NCBI GenBank assembly: GCA_000798955.1
Contig: JTLC01000003.1
Location: forward strand, 1-41,527
DNA: 41,527 nt
From: Firmicutes bacterium ZOR0006
GTDB taxonomy: Bacteria > Bacillota_I > Bacilli_A > Culicoidibacterales > ZOR0006
Reading direction: 5' to 3'
A model generated the notes under the pieces. It was given only the letters and a program-made list of their open reading frames with translations, ran no database searches and was not told where the DNA came from. Numbering within the stretch: the stretch's first letter is position 1; each line of letters begins with the position of its first letter. A program made the position numbers and the translations under genes. Positions 15,147 through 23,866 of the stretch are shown here, piece after piece.

Positions 15147-18100
15147 ATGCGAAACAAAAAAGTGAAACAGTTGAAGAGAGCAGCGGTTGTTACATTGACA
15201 ACAGGAATGATGCTACAAATTTTAGCACCAGTCGTACAGCCACTTATTACGCAAGCCAGTGAAATGAAAGTCACAACAACACAAGTAAGTAATCAAAAAC
15301 GGAACGTGATGTATTATGGTGATTGGTCAATCTGGGGAGGGCAAGGTAATTTTTATCCAAAAGATATTCCCGCAGAGCAATTAACACATTTGAATTTTGC
15401 TTTTCTTGATTTTGATGCCCAAGGAAATTTAATTTTTACAGATAAAGATGCTGCTGTCGGAGCACCAGTTGGCCAAGAAGGTGCACAGTGGGGGGCACCA
15501 AATGCCGGCATTTTGAATGCCCTACAGGAATTACGTGAAAGAAATCCGAATTTAAAATTAGGGATTTCTGTCGGAGGTTGGTCCAAATCGGGAGACTTCG
15601 CACCTATGGCAGCAAATCCAGAGGCGAGAGCAAATTTTATTGATAATATTATCAAATTTATCGAATATACAAACATGGATTTTATTGATTTGGATTGGGA
15701 ATTTCCGGGAGAAGTTCGCGAAGGTGATTTAGTTGACAATAAAAATGATGAAGGTACACCACATGCAACCCCAGAAGACGGCGAAAACTACGTTGTTTTA
15801 TTGGAAGAGCTTAAAGCAGCACTGAATTTGAAAGAAATTACGAACGGCAAGGAATATGAATTATCAGTTGCGATTCCTGCCCCAAAGAAAAAACAGCAAA
15901 AATTAGAAATTGATCGCTTGTTTAATGCTGTGGATTTCGCAAATGTTATGACGTATGATTTACGTGGAGCTTGGGATGATACAAGCGGACATCAGACAGG
16001 GTTATATCCCAATCCGAATGACTCGGTCAATACTGACAATTTATCAATTGATGAATCTGTGGACTTCTTAATTGCAAATGGTGCGGAGCCTGAAAAAATT
16101 GTGATTGGTGCCGCATTTTATACTCGAGGTTGGGATAAAGTAGCCAAAGGAACAAATTCCGAACTACCTGGTTTATTTCAAACAGCGGAAAAAACAGGAA
16201 AGGATGCCGATCAAACGCCGTCATATGGCGCGCCAAATGAAGCACCGATGGCATCAGGAGATGGTGGACGTGCCGCTGGAGCTTGGACATATCGTGGTCT
16301 CGAAAAATTAAAGGCACAATATCCAGGCCTAAAAGAGTATTGGGATGATGTCGCAAAGGCACCATATTTATATGATGAAACGAGTGGGAAATTTTTCACG
16401 TATGATAATGCGCAATCAATCTTGGAAAAAGCAAATTATGTCAACGAAAATAACCTCGGTGGTATGATTGGCTGGATGGCATCACAAGATAAAGAAACGA
16501 CATCGGGATCAGCTAAACGTGATGAATTAACACAGACGATGAAAACGGGATTGTTTGGTAGTGCTTCATTACCGGAACATGAAATTATCTACCATGAATT
16601 AGATGTTGAAGCACATGTTGTTGCCTACGAACAAGAGTGGGGAGCAAGCAGAAAAGGATATGAAATTACTTTGCGTAATAATGAAAAAGCTGAAGAAAGT
16701 GATGCGGTACTAAAAGAAGTTGAACGCGGTGCCGAAACTGTAAAAGCACCAAAACTCTATCTGAAAACGAATCAAGCTCTAGCTAGTGGTGACCACATGG
16801 CAGGTACAGTTAGTTATCAAGATGGCTATACCGTTGTTGATCTTCAATCAGTTTGGGAAGGAAAAAATATCGAAGCTGGTCAAACATACACGTTTAAACT
16901 GAGTGGTGATGCGACAATTGAAAGCATTGAACTTGTTCAACGAATGTCGACGAATGGACCTGAGTTAGGAAAGCAACTTATTTATGGTGAAAAGGATGAA
17001 AGTGAAAATACGGCGCCTGTCCTTTTTGGTGTGCAAGATCAAACAATTGAGATTGGGACAAAATTTGATGAAATGCACGGAATTACAGCATGGGATAAAG
17101 AAGATGGTGATATTACATCGGCTATAACGATCAATGGGCGAGTTGATTTGCAAACTATCGGGACCTATCCATTAACGTATCGTGTAGTCGATAGTCAAGG
17201 TTTAGAAACACAAGCAAGTCGGGTTATTACGGTCGTTAATCAGGCAGTTGATCCAGAAATAGATTTTGGTGTGGGTGAAGGAATTGTTTGGCCAGAACAA
17301 GTATATGCCCCATTTGCTGACATGACACTTTGGAATAATGGTGACTTCTCAAATAACGGTGCACTGAACTTACAGAAAATTGTAGCTGAAACTGGCGTAA
17401 AACACTTTAACTTAGGTTTTATTCAGGCAACAGGTGGAGTCAATGATGGCAAAGTAAACTGGGGCTGGGGTGGACACGAAGTATTAAGTGAGCGTCACCC
17501 TGAAAATGCACAATATCAGGGAATAAAAAAAGCAATTCGTGATGTCCGTGAGCTTGGTGGCGATGTGACTATTTCCCTCGGTGGACTAAATGGAACAGCA
17601 ATTTGGGAAGCGAGCCAAGATGAGCAAACGCTCTATCAGACATATAAAGAAATCGTTGAGGGGTACGGATTAACGCGATTAGATTTAGATATTGAAGGTG
17701 CAGCAACAGATAAAGTTAAAAACACAGTCAATGCGCAAGCTATCAAACGGGTACAAGATGAAACTGGTATCGATATTGTATTAACGCTAGCGGTGATGCC
17801 AACAGGGTTGACACAAGTACAATTAGATGTGTTAGAAGCATACTTATCAGCCGGTGTTGATATTGAAGTAGTCAATATTATGACAATGTGTTATGGGACA
17901 TCAGCCGGTGATTATGCGCTTGCTTCGGTTCAGGCGATCGATAATACAATGAAGCAAGTTCAACAGTATTTTGCCGAATATGCAAATATTCATTTGAGTG
18001 AAGCACAAGCGTATCGAAAAATTGGGGCAACTCCTTCAGTAGGATTTGAAGGTGCAGCACATCCAATTTTTGCTGTTGCTGATACAAAAGTCGTCGTCGA

Positions 18101-19004
18101 ACATGCTATTGCTAAAAAAATTGGAATGGTATCAATGTGGTCAATAAATCGTGATGCACAAGCACAAGTCAATGAAGGTATTTATGGTGCTTATGAACAT
18201 ACAACAATCATGAAACAATTCGGTGAACAATCAGTTGGGAAACCAATTTTTGTGGGATTAGATGATGTGACGATCACAGTTGGTGAAGAGTTTGATGCCC
18301 GAGCAAATGTAAGTGCGACTGATGCAGAAGATGGTGATTTAACAGCAGCAATTATCATCTCGGGAAGTGTGGATCCAATGACCACTGGTGTGTATGAATT
18401 GACATATCGTGTCACAGATAGTGACGGGAACACAACAATTGAAACGAGAAATGTGACGGTTGAAGAATCAGTTATTACGCCAGATAAAGCACCAGTATTA
18501 AAAGGGATTACTGATGTGACAATCACAGTTGGTGAAGAGTTTGATGCCCGAACAGGTGTAAGTGCGACTGATGCAGAAGATGGTGATTTAACAGCAGCAA
18601 TTATCATTTCGGGAAGTGTGGATCCAATGACCGCTGGTGTGTATGAATTGACATATCGCGTCACAGATAGTGCAAGCAATACAACGACACAAGCAAGAAC
18701 AATTACAGTCAAAGCCAACACTGGTGATACCTATGATCCGAAGGCAATTTATTATGGTGGCGAAATTGTCACATATAATGGTGAAGAATACCAGGCGAAA
18801 TGGTGGACACAAGGTGAAACACCAGGACAAGCGGCAGTTTGGGAGAAAATTGTGAAACCAAATGCTGATGGAAGTGTTGATTGGTATGAGGGAATGGTCG
18901 CAACAGGCGGAACCGTTGTAAAATATCAAGGAAAAACTTATGAAGCAAAATGGTGGACAACGAGTACACCAGGAAGTGACGACTCATGGCAATTGATTTC
19001 ATAA
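15147..19004 (+). CDS. Secreted multidomain chitinase with two GH18 domains
   Basis: 1285 residues, AAAGGAG upstream. Signal peptide with cleavage near residue 38 (ITQAS). GH18 domain 1, about 50-470, has the catalytic signature D178-x2-D181-x-D183-x-E185 and SVGGWS. A beta-rich module (about 475-620) resembles a carbohydrate-binding or fibronectin-like spacer. A DUF5011-type Ig-like domain follows (about 622-698). A second, divergent GH18 domain (about 705-1030) has SLGGLNG and D846-L-D848-I-E850. Two nearly identical Ig-like domains (about 1035-1195) come next, then two CBM5/12-type chitin-binding domains, each with YxAKWWT. Known GH18 enzymes hydrolyse chitin or related N-acetylglucosamine glycans. 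No LPXTG anchor is present, so it is probably released or held by its binding domains. Two catalytic modules are unusual in one chain. Confidence 0.93.
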   Translation: MRNKKVKQLKRAAVVTLTTGMMLQILAPVVQPLITQASEMKVTTTQVSNQKRNVMYYGDWSIWGGQGNFYPKDIPAEQLTHLNFAFLDFDAQGNLIFTDKDAAVGAPVGQEGAQWGAPNAGILNALQELRERNPNLKLGISVGGWSKSGDFAPMAANPEARANFIDNIIKFIEYTNMDFIDLDWEFPGEVREGDLVDNKNDEGTPHATPEDGENYVVLLEELKAALNLKEITNGKEYELSVAIPAPKKKQQKLEIDRLFNAVDFANVMTYDLRGAWDDTSGHQTGLYPNPNDSVNTDNLSIDESVDFLIANGAEPEKIVIGAAFYTRGWDKVAKGTNSELPGLFQTAEKTGKDADQTPSYGAPNEAPMASGDGGRAAGAWTYRGLEKLKAQYPGLKEYWDDVAKAPYLYDETSGKFFTYDNAQSILEKANYVNENNLGGMIGWMASQDKETTSGSAKRDELTQTMKTGLFGSASLPEHEIIYHELDVEAHVVAYEQEWGASRKGYEITLRNNEKAEESDAVLKEVERGAETVKAPKLYLKTNQALASGDHMAGTVSYQDGYTVVDLQSVWEGKNIEAGQTYTFKLSGDATIESIELVQRMSTNGPELGKQLIYGEKDESENTAPVLFGVQDQTIEIGTKFDEMHGITAWDKEDGDITSAITINGRVDLQTIGTYPLTYRVVDSQGLETQASRVITVVNQAVDPEIDFGVGEGIVWPEQVYAPFADMTLWNNGDFSNNGALNLQKIVAETGVKHFNLGFIQATGGVNDGKVNWGWGGHEVLSERHPENAQYQGIKKAIRDVRELGGDVTISLGGLNGTAIWEASQDEQTLYQTYKEIVEGYGLTRLDLDIEGAATDKVKNTVNAQAIKRVQDETGIDIVLTLAVMPTGLTQVQLDVLEAYLSAGVDIEVVNIMTMCYGTSAGDYALASVQAIDNTMKQVQQYFAEYANIHLSEAQAYRKIGATPSVGFEGAAHPIFAVADTKVVVEHAIAKKIGMVSMWSINRDAQAQVNEGIYGAYEHTTIMKQFGEQSVGKPIFVGLDDVTITVGEEFDARANVSATDAEDGDLTAAIIISGSVDPMTTGVYELTYRVTDSDGNTTIETRNVTVEESVITPDKAPVLKGITDVTITVGEEFDARTGVSATDAEDGDLTAAIIISGSVDPMTAGVYELTYRVTDSASNTTTQARTITVKANTGDTYDPKAIYYGGEIVTYNGEEYQAKWWTQGETPGQAAVWEKIVKPNADGSVDWYEGMVATGGTVVKYQGKTYEAKWWTTSTPGSDDSWQLIS
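18264..18680 (+). repeat. Tandem 249-base duplication inside the chitinase gene
   Basis: The segment starting GATGTGACGATC at 18264 recurs at 18513 with only scattered differences over about 160 bases. The offset is 249 bases, exactly 83 codons, so the reading frame is kept. This is a recent in-frame duplication of an Ig-like domain. Confidence 0.9.
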
Positions 19005-20581: not shown

Positions 20582-20648
20582 CAATCAGTATTCAAAAAAA
20601 TAATCAATGATTCCAAAGGGGAATCATCGTCAAAAGGGGAGAACTAGT

Positions 20649-21104
20649 ATGGAAATTCGCCACATTTTAGCGCATGAAACATATTCATTACGTCATGCTG
20701 TATTACGTCAAAATTTACCAATTGAAACATGTTACTTTGAGAATGATTTAGCTGCCACCAGTTTTCATCTAGGAATTTTTGCCGATGATGCTTTAGTAGC
20801 TTGTGCGAGTTTTGAGCTATCACCATGGGAAAATCACTTATATCGTTTACGCAGTCTAGCTGTAGCCCAAGAGGTTCAAGGTCAAGGCTATGGGGCGATA
20901 TTACTTGAAGCTGCGGAATGCTATTTGGAAACAATTGGTGCTACGAGTTATTGGTGTAATGCACGCCAAAGTGCACAACGTTTTTATCAACGTTTAGGAT
21001 TTGTAGCAGCCGGAAATTATTTTTTTGCTGAGTATGCAGGAATCCAACAAAAAATGTATAAAAGTCTTGAAGTTGAAGTTGCAATCGCTGATGGTATTGC
21101 CTAA
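20649..21104 (+). CDS. GNAT-family N-acetyltransferase
   Basis: 151 residues from ATG 20649, with AAGGGGAGA upstream; codons from 20607 lack a binding site. The GNAT core is visible: YRLRSLAVAQEVQGQGYGAILLEAAE contains the Q/R-x2-G-x-G/A acetyl-CoA loop, and AQRFYQRLGF is the usual C-terminal strand-helix signature. The substrate is unknown. The next gene, 30 bases downstream, encodes a paralogue sharing the LR..VLR.N.P....C.F N-terminus, so the two form an operon of duplicated enzymes. Confidence 0.85.
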   Translation: MEIRHILAHETYSLRHAVLRQNLPIETCYFENDLAATSFHLGIFADDALVACASFELSPWENHLYRLRSLAVAQEVQGQGYGAILLEAAECYLETIGATSYWCNARQSAQRFYQRLGFVAAGNYFFAEYAGIQQKMYKSLEVEVAIADGIA

Positions 21105-21134
21105 AATAAATAGGGAAGAAAGGTGAGATGTAAA

Positions 21135-21566
21135 ATGGAAGTCAAACAAATTTCGGTCGAAGCAACATACCCATTACGTCAGCAAGTTTTACGACCAAAT
21201 CGACCATTGTCAGCATGCCAATTTCCTGATGATTATCAAACAACAACATATCATTTTGGGATTGTGACAGAAGCAAAACAAGTCGTGGCAATTGCTACGT
21301 TTTTACTGACTGATCAAGGGCATCAGTTAAGAGGTGTTGCCTGTAGTCCAGAGTTCCAGAACCAGGGACTAGGTTCGTACTTGCTAAGAGGTGCGTATGA
21401 CCAGTTAGAGGCAATAGGAATTGAAAAAATTTGGTGTCAAGCGCGAATTCGTGCACGTAAATTTTATGAACGTTTAGGTTTTGAAACTGATGGAGTCATC
21501 TTTGAAGTGCCGGATGTTGGACCACATGTGACGATGGTATGGGTAAATAAACCGCAAAATAATTAA
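21135..21566 (+). CDS. GNAT-family N-acetyltransferase, paralogue of the preceding gene
   Basis: 143 residues from ATG 21135, with GAAAGGTGA upstream. LRGVACSPEFQNQGLGSYLLRGA holds the acetyl-CoA loop, and ARKFYERLGFETDG the C-terminal signature. It aligns with its neighbour from the first residues (LRQQVLRPNRPLSACQF) and is clearly a duplicate that has diverged. Substrate unknown; the pair may act as a heterodimer, which is inference. Confidence 0.85.
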   Translation: MEVKQISVEATYPLRQQVLRPNRPLSACQFPDDYQTTTYHFGIVTEAKQVVAIATFLLTDQGHQLRGVACSPEFQNQGLGSYLLRGAYDQLEAIGIEKIWCQARIRARKFYERLGFETDGVIFEVPDVGPHVTMVWVNKPQNN

Positions 21567-21601: not shown

Positions 21602-21630
21602 TTGACGAATCAAGCAGGAACTGCTATAAT
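21602..21630 (+). promoter_or_regulatory. Strong promoter for a candidate non-coding RNA
   Basis: TTGACG, exactly 17 bases, TATAAT, with TGC before the -10. This is the best sigma-A-type promoter in the window, and no reading frame follows it before a terminator. Confidence 0.8.
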
Positions 21631-21636
21631 TAAAAC

Positions 21637-21773
21637 TCGTTAAGTGTGGTTCCCATACTTAATTACGATGGAATCATATCAGTTTTAACTGGTTCGTGAG
21701 GGCTAACACGGGAAGGACGATTTCATCAGAACAAATCCAACAAAAAAACCGACGAGTATCCGTCGGTTTTTTT
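21637..21773 (+). ncRNA. Candidate structured small RNA or cutC leader, about 137 nt
   Basis: The transcript would start near 21637. Predicted helices are: TTAAGTGTGG with CCATACTTAA around TTC (21640-21662); GATGGAATC (21667-21675) with GATTTCATC (21719-21727), closing a junction that holds CAGTT/AACTG and CGTG/CACG hairpins; then a terminator. Conserved-looking single strands include GGGAAGGAC. The strong promoter and terminator fit an independent small RNA. A cis-acting leader of cutC, 80 bases downstream, is the alternative. I could not match it to a named riboswitch, 6S or SRP RNA. Confidence 0.65.
21745..21773 (+). terminator. Terminator of the candidate RNA
   Basis: CCGACG-AGTATC-CGTCGG forms a perfect GC-rich stem, flanked by A5 and T7. 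Confidence 0.92.
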
Positions 21774-21854
21774 GTTATATTAAATTGATGAAAAAGTATC
21801 GAAAAACCATAAAAAATGGTAGAATAAAACAAAGAAAGAGAAGGAGAGAAATAC

Positions 21855-22532
21855 ATGTTTATTGAAGTAATTGCCCAAAATTTGGCTGATGCAAAGATTG
21901 CTGAAAGTGCCGGTGCGAATCGGATTGAACTGGTTGCTAATATGTCTGAAGATGGTTTGACACCAAGTGAATCACTTGTAGCAACAATTTGTAAGGAAAC
22001 AAAAATTGCTCTGCGAGTCATGGTACGATTTCACAACCAAGGCTTTATTTATACTCAGGATGAATGTGAGAAAATGTGCCAATGGATTATTGCGAATAAT
22101 CATTTGCCAATCGAAGGCTATGTGCTTGGAGGACTAACAGAAACAGGAATGATCGATACGCAATTCTTAGATGCCATTGCACCGATTATTGGTGAGAAGA
22201 AAGTCACATTTCATCGCGCATTTGATCGCTTAACATGGGGACAGCAAGAGCAAGCAGTGCTCGTGTTAAAAAAATATCCCTTTGTCGATACAATCCTAAC
22301 AAGTGGAGGGATTCAGCAACCATTAGCGAAGAATCTTGAACATTTAAAAAAACTTGCTGTTTTAGCAGCACCGATTACATTGCTAGTTGGTGGCGGGGTA
22401 AATGAACAAGTATTCCCATTGTTGCAAGCAGTACCAGAATTACAAGCAATACATATTGGTAGTGCCGTGCGAGAACATGGAGATTTTCACAATCCGATTT
22501 CAGCAAGAGCTATCCAAAATTTTAAACAATAG
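21855..22532 (+). CDS. cutC: CutC-family protein (copper homeostasis family)
   Basis: 225 residues, with GAAGGAGAG upstream. Family signatures are MFIEVIAQNLADAKIAESAGANRIEL at the N-terminus (shown by its first residues), GGLTPS-like DGLTPSESL, VMVRF, and VTFHRAFDR, and a C-terminal glycine stretch LLVGGGVN before IHIGSAVRE. CutC is a TIM-barrel protein, cytoplasmic, historically linked to copper tolerance, although its biochemical role is disputed. The gene follows the structured RNA at 21637-21773 and is probably co-transcribed with the GNAT gene 20 bases downstream. Confidence 0.9.
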   Translation: MFIEVIAQNLADAKIAESAGANRIELVANMSEDGLTPSESLVATICKETKIALRVMVRFHNQGFIYTQDECEKMCQWIIANNHLPIEGYVLGGLTETGMIDTQFLDAIAPIIGEKKVTFHRAFDRLTWGQQEQAVLVLKKYPFVDTILTSGGIQQPLAKNLEHLKKLAVLAAPITLLVGGGVNEQVFPLLQAVPELQAIHIGSAVREHGDFHNPISARAIQNFKQ

Positions 22533-22552: not shown

Positions 22553-22999
22553 ATGAAACTCATAGCAGCAACAAGACAAGATTGTCCAACAATTTTTGCA
22601 TATATTCAGAAATTAGCACAACATGAAGAAAGTGAAGCAGCTCTTACGGCAACACCACAGAGTCTCGAACGGGCTTTATTTGATGAAAAAGCGGCAGAAG
22701 CTTTCCTTGTTGCGTATCAAGACGCAACGGTAGGTATCGTTATTATTAGTAAAAATTTTTCAACATACTTGGGAAAACCAACATTATTTTTAGAAGACTT
22801 GTTCTTAGATGAAGCCGTGCGCGGATTAGGACTAGGAAAAGCAATTTTAGTTGAACTCCAACAGATAGCGAAACAAAGAGCGTATGGACGGGTCGAATGG
22901 ACATGTTTAAATGAAAATATTGGCGCAAAACAGTTTTATGAAAGTCAAGGTGCACGCCCACTCACCGATAAAACTATTTATCGTTTCACGATTGAATAA
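22553..22999 (+). CDS. GNAT-family N-acetyltransferase (diamine acetyltransferase-like)
   Basis: 148 residues, with GAGGAGAG upstream. FLEDLFLDEAVRGLGLGKAILVEL contains the acetyl-CoA loop R-G-L-G-L-G, and the LFLEDLFVxxxxRG pattern is characteristic of the spermidine/spermine and diamine acetyltransferase branch. RVEWTCLNENIGAKQFYESQGA is the C-terminal signature of the same branch. Polyamines or amino acids are likely substrates, by family only. It is the second gene of the cutC transcript and ends at a shared terminator. Confidence 0.85.
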   Translation: MKLIAATRQDCPTIFAYIQKLAQHEESEAALTATPQSLERALFDEKAAEAFLVAYQDATVGIVIISKNFSTYLGKPTLFLEDLFLDEAVRGLGLGKAILVELQQIAKQRAYGRVEWTCLNENIGAKQFYESQGARPLTDKTIYRFTIE

Positions 23000-23050: not shown

Positions 23051-23866
23051 TTATTTGTTTGTTTGGGCAATAAATGCCATCATTCGTCCTGTTAAGCCCT
23101 CTTTTCGGAATGAATAGAAAAGATCAATATCCGCAACAGTACAATAACTTGTCCGTAAAATATTTTCTGATGGAATCCCCAAATCAAGTAATTGGAGCTC
23201 ATTTAGGTATGGTGTATCAAGTTTGTATTCACCAGTTCCTAGATCACTAAAGGCAAGTTGAGTATTTGGTGTTTCCATTGCTAAAACTTGTTCAATAACG
23301 GGAAGATCGACACGGTAATTGGCTTTGGAAATAGCCGGTCCAATTGCGACATGAATTTCGCTCGGAAGAATCCCTTTTGCTAACCATTCTTTGACGAATA
23401 CACGTGTAATTTCATTGACGCTTCCTTGCCAACCAGCATGAACCACACCAACTAAGTCATGATTTGGAGCAATAAAAAGTAGTGGTACACAATCAGCGTA
23501 GAATGCAGTCAGTAATACGTCATGATCAGTCGTATAGAGGCCATCAGTTTTGGGAATTCCTGATTCAAAGTCATGAGTACCAGCACCACAATCAGCTTGT
23601 GTTACTTCGGCAACAGTATTCGTGTGAGCTTGTTCAGCGACAACCCACTCTTCCCAATTAAAACCAATTTTTTCACCCATTTTTTTTCGATTTGCTTGGA
23701 CATAAGCTGGGATATCTCCAACTTGATAGGCAATATTATTGCCAGTGAAACGCGATTTTGAAACGCCATCTAAACGAGTAGTAAATCCAGCTAAAATATG
23801 CGGAAAACGTTCTTCCCAGTCGCGAACGAAAAGTAGGCCGTTTTCTAAACGAAATGGTTCAATCAT
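23051..23866 (-). CDS. pgeF: Purine nucleoside phosphorylase/laccase-domain protein (PgeF/YfiH family)
   Basis: 271 residues, with AGAAGGAGA upstream. The metal-site residues of the family are visible: His81 in QAHTNTV, Cys126 in YADCVPLLF and His143 in VVHAGWQGS. The C-terminal FYSFRKEGLTGRMMAF is also typical. Family members were once called polyphenol oxidases; characterised ones cleave purine nucleosides or act on cytoplasmic peptidoglycan amino-acid errors. Which applies here is not visible. The gene starts 23 bases after rqcH and is in its operon. Confidence 0.88.
   Translation of the reverse strand: MIEPFRLENGLLFVRDWEERFPHILAGFTTRLDGVSKSRFTGNNIAYQVGDIPAYVQANRKKMGEKIGFNWEEWVVAEQAHTNTVAEVTQADCGAGTHDFESGIPKTDGLYTTDHDVLLTAFYADCVPLLFIAPNHDLVGVVHAGWQGSVNEITRVFVKEWLAKGILPSEIHVAIGPAISKANYRVDLPVIEQVLAMETPNTQLAFSDLGTGEYKLDTPYLNELQLLDLGIPSENILRTSYCTVADIDLFYSFRKEGLTGRMMAFIAQTNK

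Follow-up and report, generated by a model that had tools for sequence, protein, structure and literature searches.

In Firmicutes bacterium ZOR0006, the gap between an acetyltransferase gene (end at 21566) and cutC (start at 21855) contains a segment (21602-21773) that the first-pass annotation described as a strongly promoted structured RNA, either an independent small RNA or a ligand-sensing leader of cutC. Which of these does the locus encode? We examined the segment within its window, the whole 41,527-nucleotide stretch of DNA analysed here, and compared it with G001, the one other genome of the genus compared, in an order sampled by four genomes. We consider that 21602-21773 is a stand-alone, non-coding small RNA gene with its own promoter and terminator, with a probability of roughly 0.7.

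Predicted anatomy of the transcription unit

The features on which the argument depends are as follows.

21602..21630, + strand: sigma-70-type promoter (TTGACG at 21602-21607, 17-nt spacer, TATAAT at 21625-21630, extended -10 TGC)
21635..21773, + strand: predicted small RNA of about 139 nt, both ends being placed from the sequence, at the promoter (5-8 nt past the -10) and at the terminator
21639..21663, + strand: 5' hairpin H1 (21639-21649 paired with 21653-21663)
21667..21727, + strand: predicted three-way-junction core made of P1, P2 and P3, mostly letter-conserved in G001
21667-21675 paired with 21719-21727, + strand: P1, predicted long-range helix enclosing P2 and P3
21678-21683 paired with 21688-21693, + strand: P2, predicted fold
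21694-21698 paired with 21707-21711, + strand: P3, predicted fold
21699..21706, + strand: P3 loop AGGGCTAA, candidate interaction surface, differing in G001 only by A/G at the first base
21728..21741, + strand: unpaired A-rich linker AGAACAAATCCAAC, candidate interaction surface, 13 of 14 bases identical in G001
21742..21773, + strand: intrinsic terminator (13-bp stem, 6-nt loop, T tract)
21855..22532, + strand: cutC (Pfam CutC), a neighbour only, outside the RNA unit

The promoter matches the consensus at 11 of 12 positions and carries an extended -10, and G001 keeps the 11/12 match, the identical spacing and the extended -10. The description of this promoter as near-consensus was therefore accurate. 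Its score taken alone is mildly unusual, since four sites of at least 11/12 were seen across the whole window as compared with 1.9 expected from dinucleotide shuffles; for sites of this quality that also have an extended -10, the corresponding numbers were 2 and 0.2.

Both the pieces of the segment and the whole (z -4.65) were predicted to fold more stably than shuffled sequences, with z values of -1.9 to -6.1 for the pieces in the two species. The GATGGAATC/GATTTCATC helix around two hairpins (21666-21728), already proposed in the first-pass annotation, gave a z of -3.1, and the strong intrinsic terminator (21742-21773), likewise proposed there, a z of -5.3. H1 (21639-21663), with a z of -6.1, is an addition to that anatomy, from which the 5' hairpin had been omitted. 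The terminator can also be read on the minus strand because of its A tract. Sequence past the T tract can lengthen the terminator hairpin toward the linker in both species, to differing lengths, and in G001 the stem can be extended to more than 20 pairs, reaching into the conserved linker; we give this extension no functional weight.

Gene neighbourhood and the relation to cutC

When 60 related genomes were searched at the DNA level, a single informative match was returned, in G001 (E = 5.8e-19, about 75% identity), and this copy carries the promoter and terminator as in the window. The gene preceding it is the ortholog of the window acetyltransferase at 20646-21104 (73% amino acid identity), and the gene following it is the ortholog of the acetyltransferase at 22553-22999 (52% identity), without cutC; in the window, the order is RNA, cutC, acetyltransferase 22553-22999. 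Acetyltransferase genes thus flank the RNA on both sides in both genomes. The cutC gene of G001 lies on a separate contig (C43), where its upstream region differs and no RNA is present, and the covariance model detected a single copy of the RNA in that genome. This synteny separates the RNA from cutC. In G001, moreover, a hairpin, AAGCACTTCAATACTGAAGTGCTT, followed by TTT sits between the preceding gene and the RNA promoter, suggesting that the RNA has its own start there. Extended -10-like sites are also present between the terminator and the next gene, TAGAAT at 21820 in the window and TATGAT in G001. They are suggestive of separate promoters for the downstream genes in both species, and only suggestive because the window sequence has a weak -35 element.

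Several other genes of the region were noted. The RNA and cutC have three acetyltransferase (GNAT) genes around them, in 20607-21566 and 22553-22999. Of these, the first and second are paralogs with 42% identity, and G001 has just one of the pair here, which suggests gene gain or loss in the small island surrounding the RNA. Just beyond the CutC and acetyltransferase genes, the minus strand encodes a Cu-oxidase_4 (laccase-domain) protein at 23051-23866. The region is preceded by a 1285-aa protein (15147-19004) that, judged from its translation, begins with a signal-like N-terminus and contains two chitinase-like regions as well as repeated segments.

Of the two possibilities initially raised, the independent small RNA is favored by the conserved promoter and terminator of its own, the confinement of conservation to the unit, and a position kept without cutC. 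The ligand-sensing leader of cutC is not supported by the sequences: its position before cutC is not conserved, and no mutually exclusive antiterminator helix common to both species was found in folds of the window and G001. A search of the literature on cutC with small RNAs and riboswitches in Firmicutes found nothing. The expectation that a ligand of the RNA would inform on CutC falls with the cutC link, which is not conserved in G001.

One possible alternative is that the RNA is a riboswitch or attenuator leader of the downstream operon, in which the core would sense a signal and the terminator (21742-21773) would act as the expression platform for the acetyltransferase, with cutC inserted here. 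A conserved junction core just before a terminator, with a gene within about 100 nt, is a common leader layout; an orthologous acetyltransferase gene lies downstream in both species; and in the ZOR0006 genome the 5' ACUCGU can pair with ACGAGU within the terminator. For control at a terminator, however, a leader must be able to form an alternative helix, and the pairing partner ACGAGU is missing from G001, where the 5' arm of the terminator stayed unpaired when the 3' arm was removed (pairing probability at most 0.07). The lack of cutC adjacency in G001 and the possible -10 sites of the downstream genes also argue against a leader, as do two more distant genomes (G002 and G003), in which the acetyltransferase is present and no copy of the RNA was detected. 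We regard this explanation as unlikely.

Conservation pattern, relatives and remaining alternatives

When the window was aligned with G001, ACTCGTTAAG at the 5' end was conserved, the 5' hairpin was changed, and the core from CGATGG to AATCCAA was well conserved; the terminator had changed letters and a stem of equal length, and the flanks, 5' of the promoter and 3' of the terminator, aligned poorly. In a structure-based alignment, H1 retained 8 of 11 pairs and the same shape with changed letters: two pairs had both letters changed and two had one changed, two inner pairs were mismatched, and the last pair was lost to the loop. The terminator showed three compensatory changes affecting both sides of a pair. 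In the core, two pairs were changed on one side, P1 was only partly kept, with 7 of 9 pairs remaining and two inner ones lost, and the P2 loop was not conserved, unlike the P3 loop. Every cell of the common 30-pair structure was paired in the two sequences, in part by construction because the structure was picked to fit both; sliding the alignment by 1-3 columns lowered the paired fraction to 37-54%. The covariation, thin because there are just two sequences, had a score reached by 67 of 500 shuffles. The case for the predicted core helices comes mainly from conserved letters. For H1 and the terminator it is the shape that has been preserved, and for P3 and its loop, the linker and much of the junction it is the sequence itself, a pattern which suggests that likely contact surfaces lie in the linker, the junction and the P3 loop.

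We carried out the two comparisons proposed in the first-pass annotation, with Rfam and with a covariance model, and neither assigned the RNA to a known class. In Rfam 15, no family reached its gathering threshold anywhere in the window, and at E values up to 10 there were only weak sub-threshold matches, to small RNA families, over the terminator on both strands. We discounted these, since a terminator on its own would yield such both-strand matches over its hairpin. A search with a covariance model of the 108-nt body, run on 395 genomes from the class, 4 from the order and 392 from the phylum, found nothing beyond the window and G001 copies, the class and phylum searches using strict filters that would miss distant relatives. 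Searches by DNA similarity gave no match in plasmids and phages. The exact core motif occurred in the species-genome collection only in G001 and one Acidimicrobiaceae contig, the latter taken as chance, and in no viral contig; 34 exact matches of viral contigs to a 17-nt linker motif were likewise taken as chance. A candidate second copy, a two-mismatch motif at G000:C68 in the genome of the window, falls within an acetyltransferase gene and was rejected. On present data, the small RNA is probably restricted to the genus and absent from Rfam, and ordinary-looking.

It also seems unlikely that the letter-conserved junction, with its conserved P3 loop, represents a new class of RNA that binds a ligand or a protein, confined to this little-studied lineage and acting in trans or on the downstream acetyltransferase operon.

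A degenerate or chance structure, in which a promoter and a bidirectional terminator enclose a selectively neutral spacer, we consider improbable. A copy was found in only two genomes, and 11/12 promoter-like sites arise by chance about twice per window; against this, the promoter spacing, core, linker and terminator were kept while the flanks and a neighboring gene changed, and the pieces fold stably in both species. A short peptide gene (a dual-function RNA) is very improbable: short frames exist, such as SEQIQ across the linker in both species, but they begin and end at different places and in different frames in the two species, a 2-nt difference in length falls between the P3 hairpin and the linker, and no placed ribosome-binding site is common to both, in agreement with the earlier claim that the segment has no reading frame.

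A probable stand-alone small RNA and its comparison with known systems

The preferred reading is thus a small RNA gene whose promoter and terminator, as read from the DNA, enclose a non-coding body, and whose unit is conserved, across two genomes, independently of the neighboring cutC gene. RNA polymerase carrying the housekeeping sigma factor would start at about 21635-21638 and stop at the intrinsic terminator at about 21773, yielding a stable RNA of about 139 nt whose ends may be protected by H1 and the terminator hairpin. The junction core would present the conserved P3 loop, RGGGCUAA, followed by the A-rich single-stranded linker, both of which target mRNAs or a protein would be likely to contact. 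The downstream genes would probably be transcribed separately.

Such an RNA would act in trans without Hfq. No match to PF17209 was found in the four genomes of the order, although the same search does find Hfq in B. subtilis and E. coli, and the RNA did not qualify as an Hfq-dependent small RNA. We searched both genomes for complements of the linker and the P3 hairpin by pattern rather than by energy, and no conserved start-site target emerged. Linker complements were commoner than the reversed control (25 versus 5 and 22 versus 3). Most of the inspected sites lie inside coding genes, many with T/S-x-E-Q on the opposite strand, so that codon usage, and not targeting, seems to account for the excess. 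For the P3 hairpin, complements were no commoner than in the control.

Among known RNAs, 6S RNA is likewise non-coding, structured and encoded as its own transcription unit; it folds as a bulged rod, whereas the RNA described here is predicted to form a three-way junction. An ordinary 6S RNA is present elsewhere in both genomes, and the RF00013 match in the genome of the window falls at G000:C57, not at 21602-21773. MicL of E. coli, the small RNA already known to be linked to cutC, is also encoded beside that gene. It arises on the 3' side of cutC, from a sigma-E promoter within the cutC region, and its target is lpp (PMC8216713). The present RNA does not belong to the MicL system, since it lies upstream of cutC, has a housekeeping-type promoter and shows no conserved tie to cutC. 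The closest likeness is to the intergenic trans-acting small RNAs of Firmicutes, with which it shares its own promoter, compact stems, an A-rich unpaired stretch, a loop and a terminator, and from which it differs in having no Rfam match at the gathering score. With this locus, a sparsely sampled order (four genomes) without detected Hfq gains a probable small RNA gene that is missing from Rfam.
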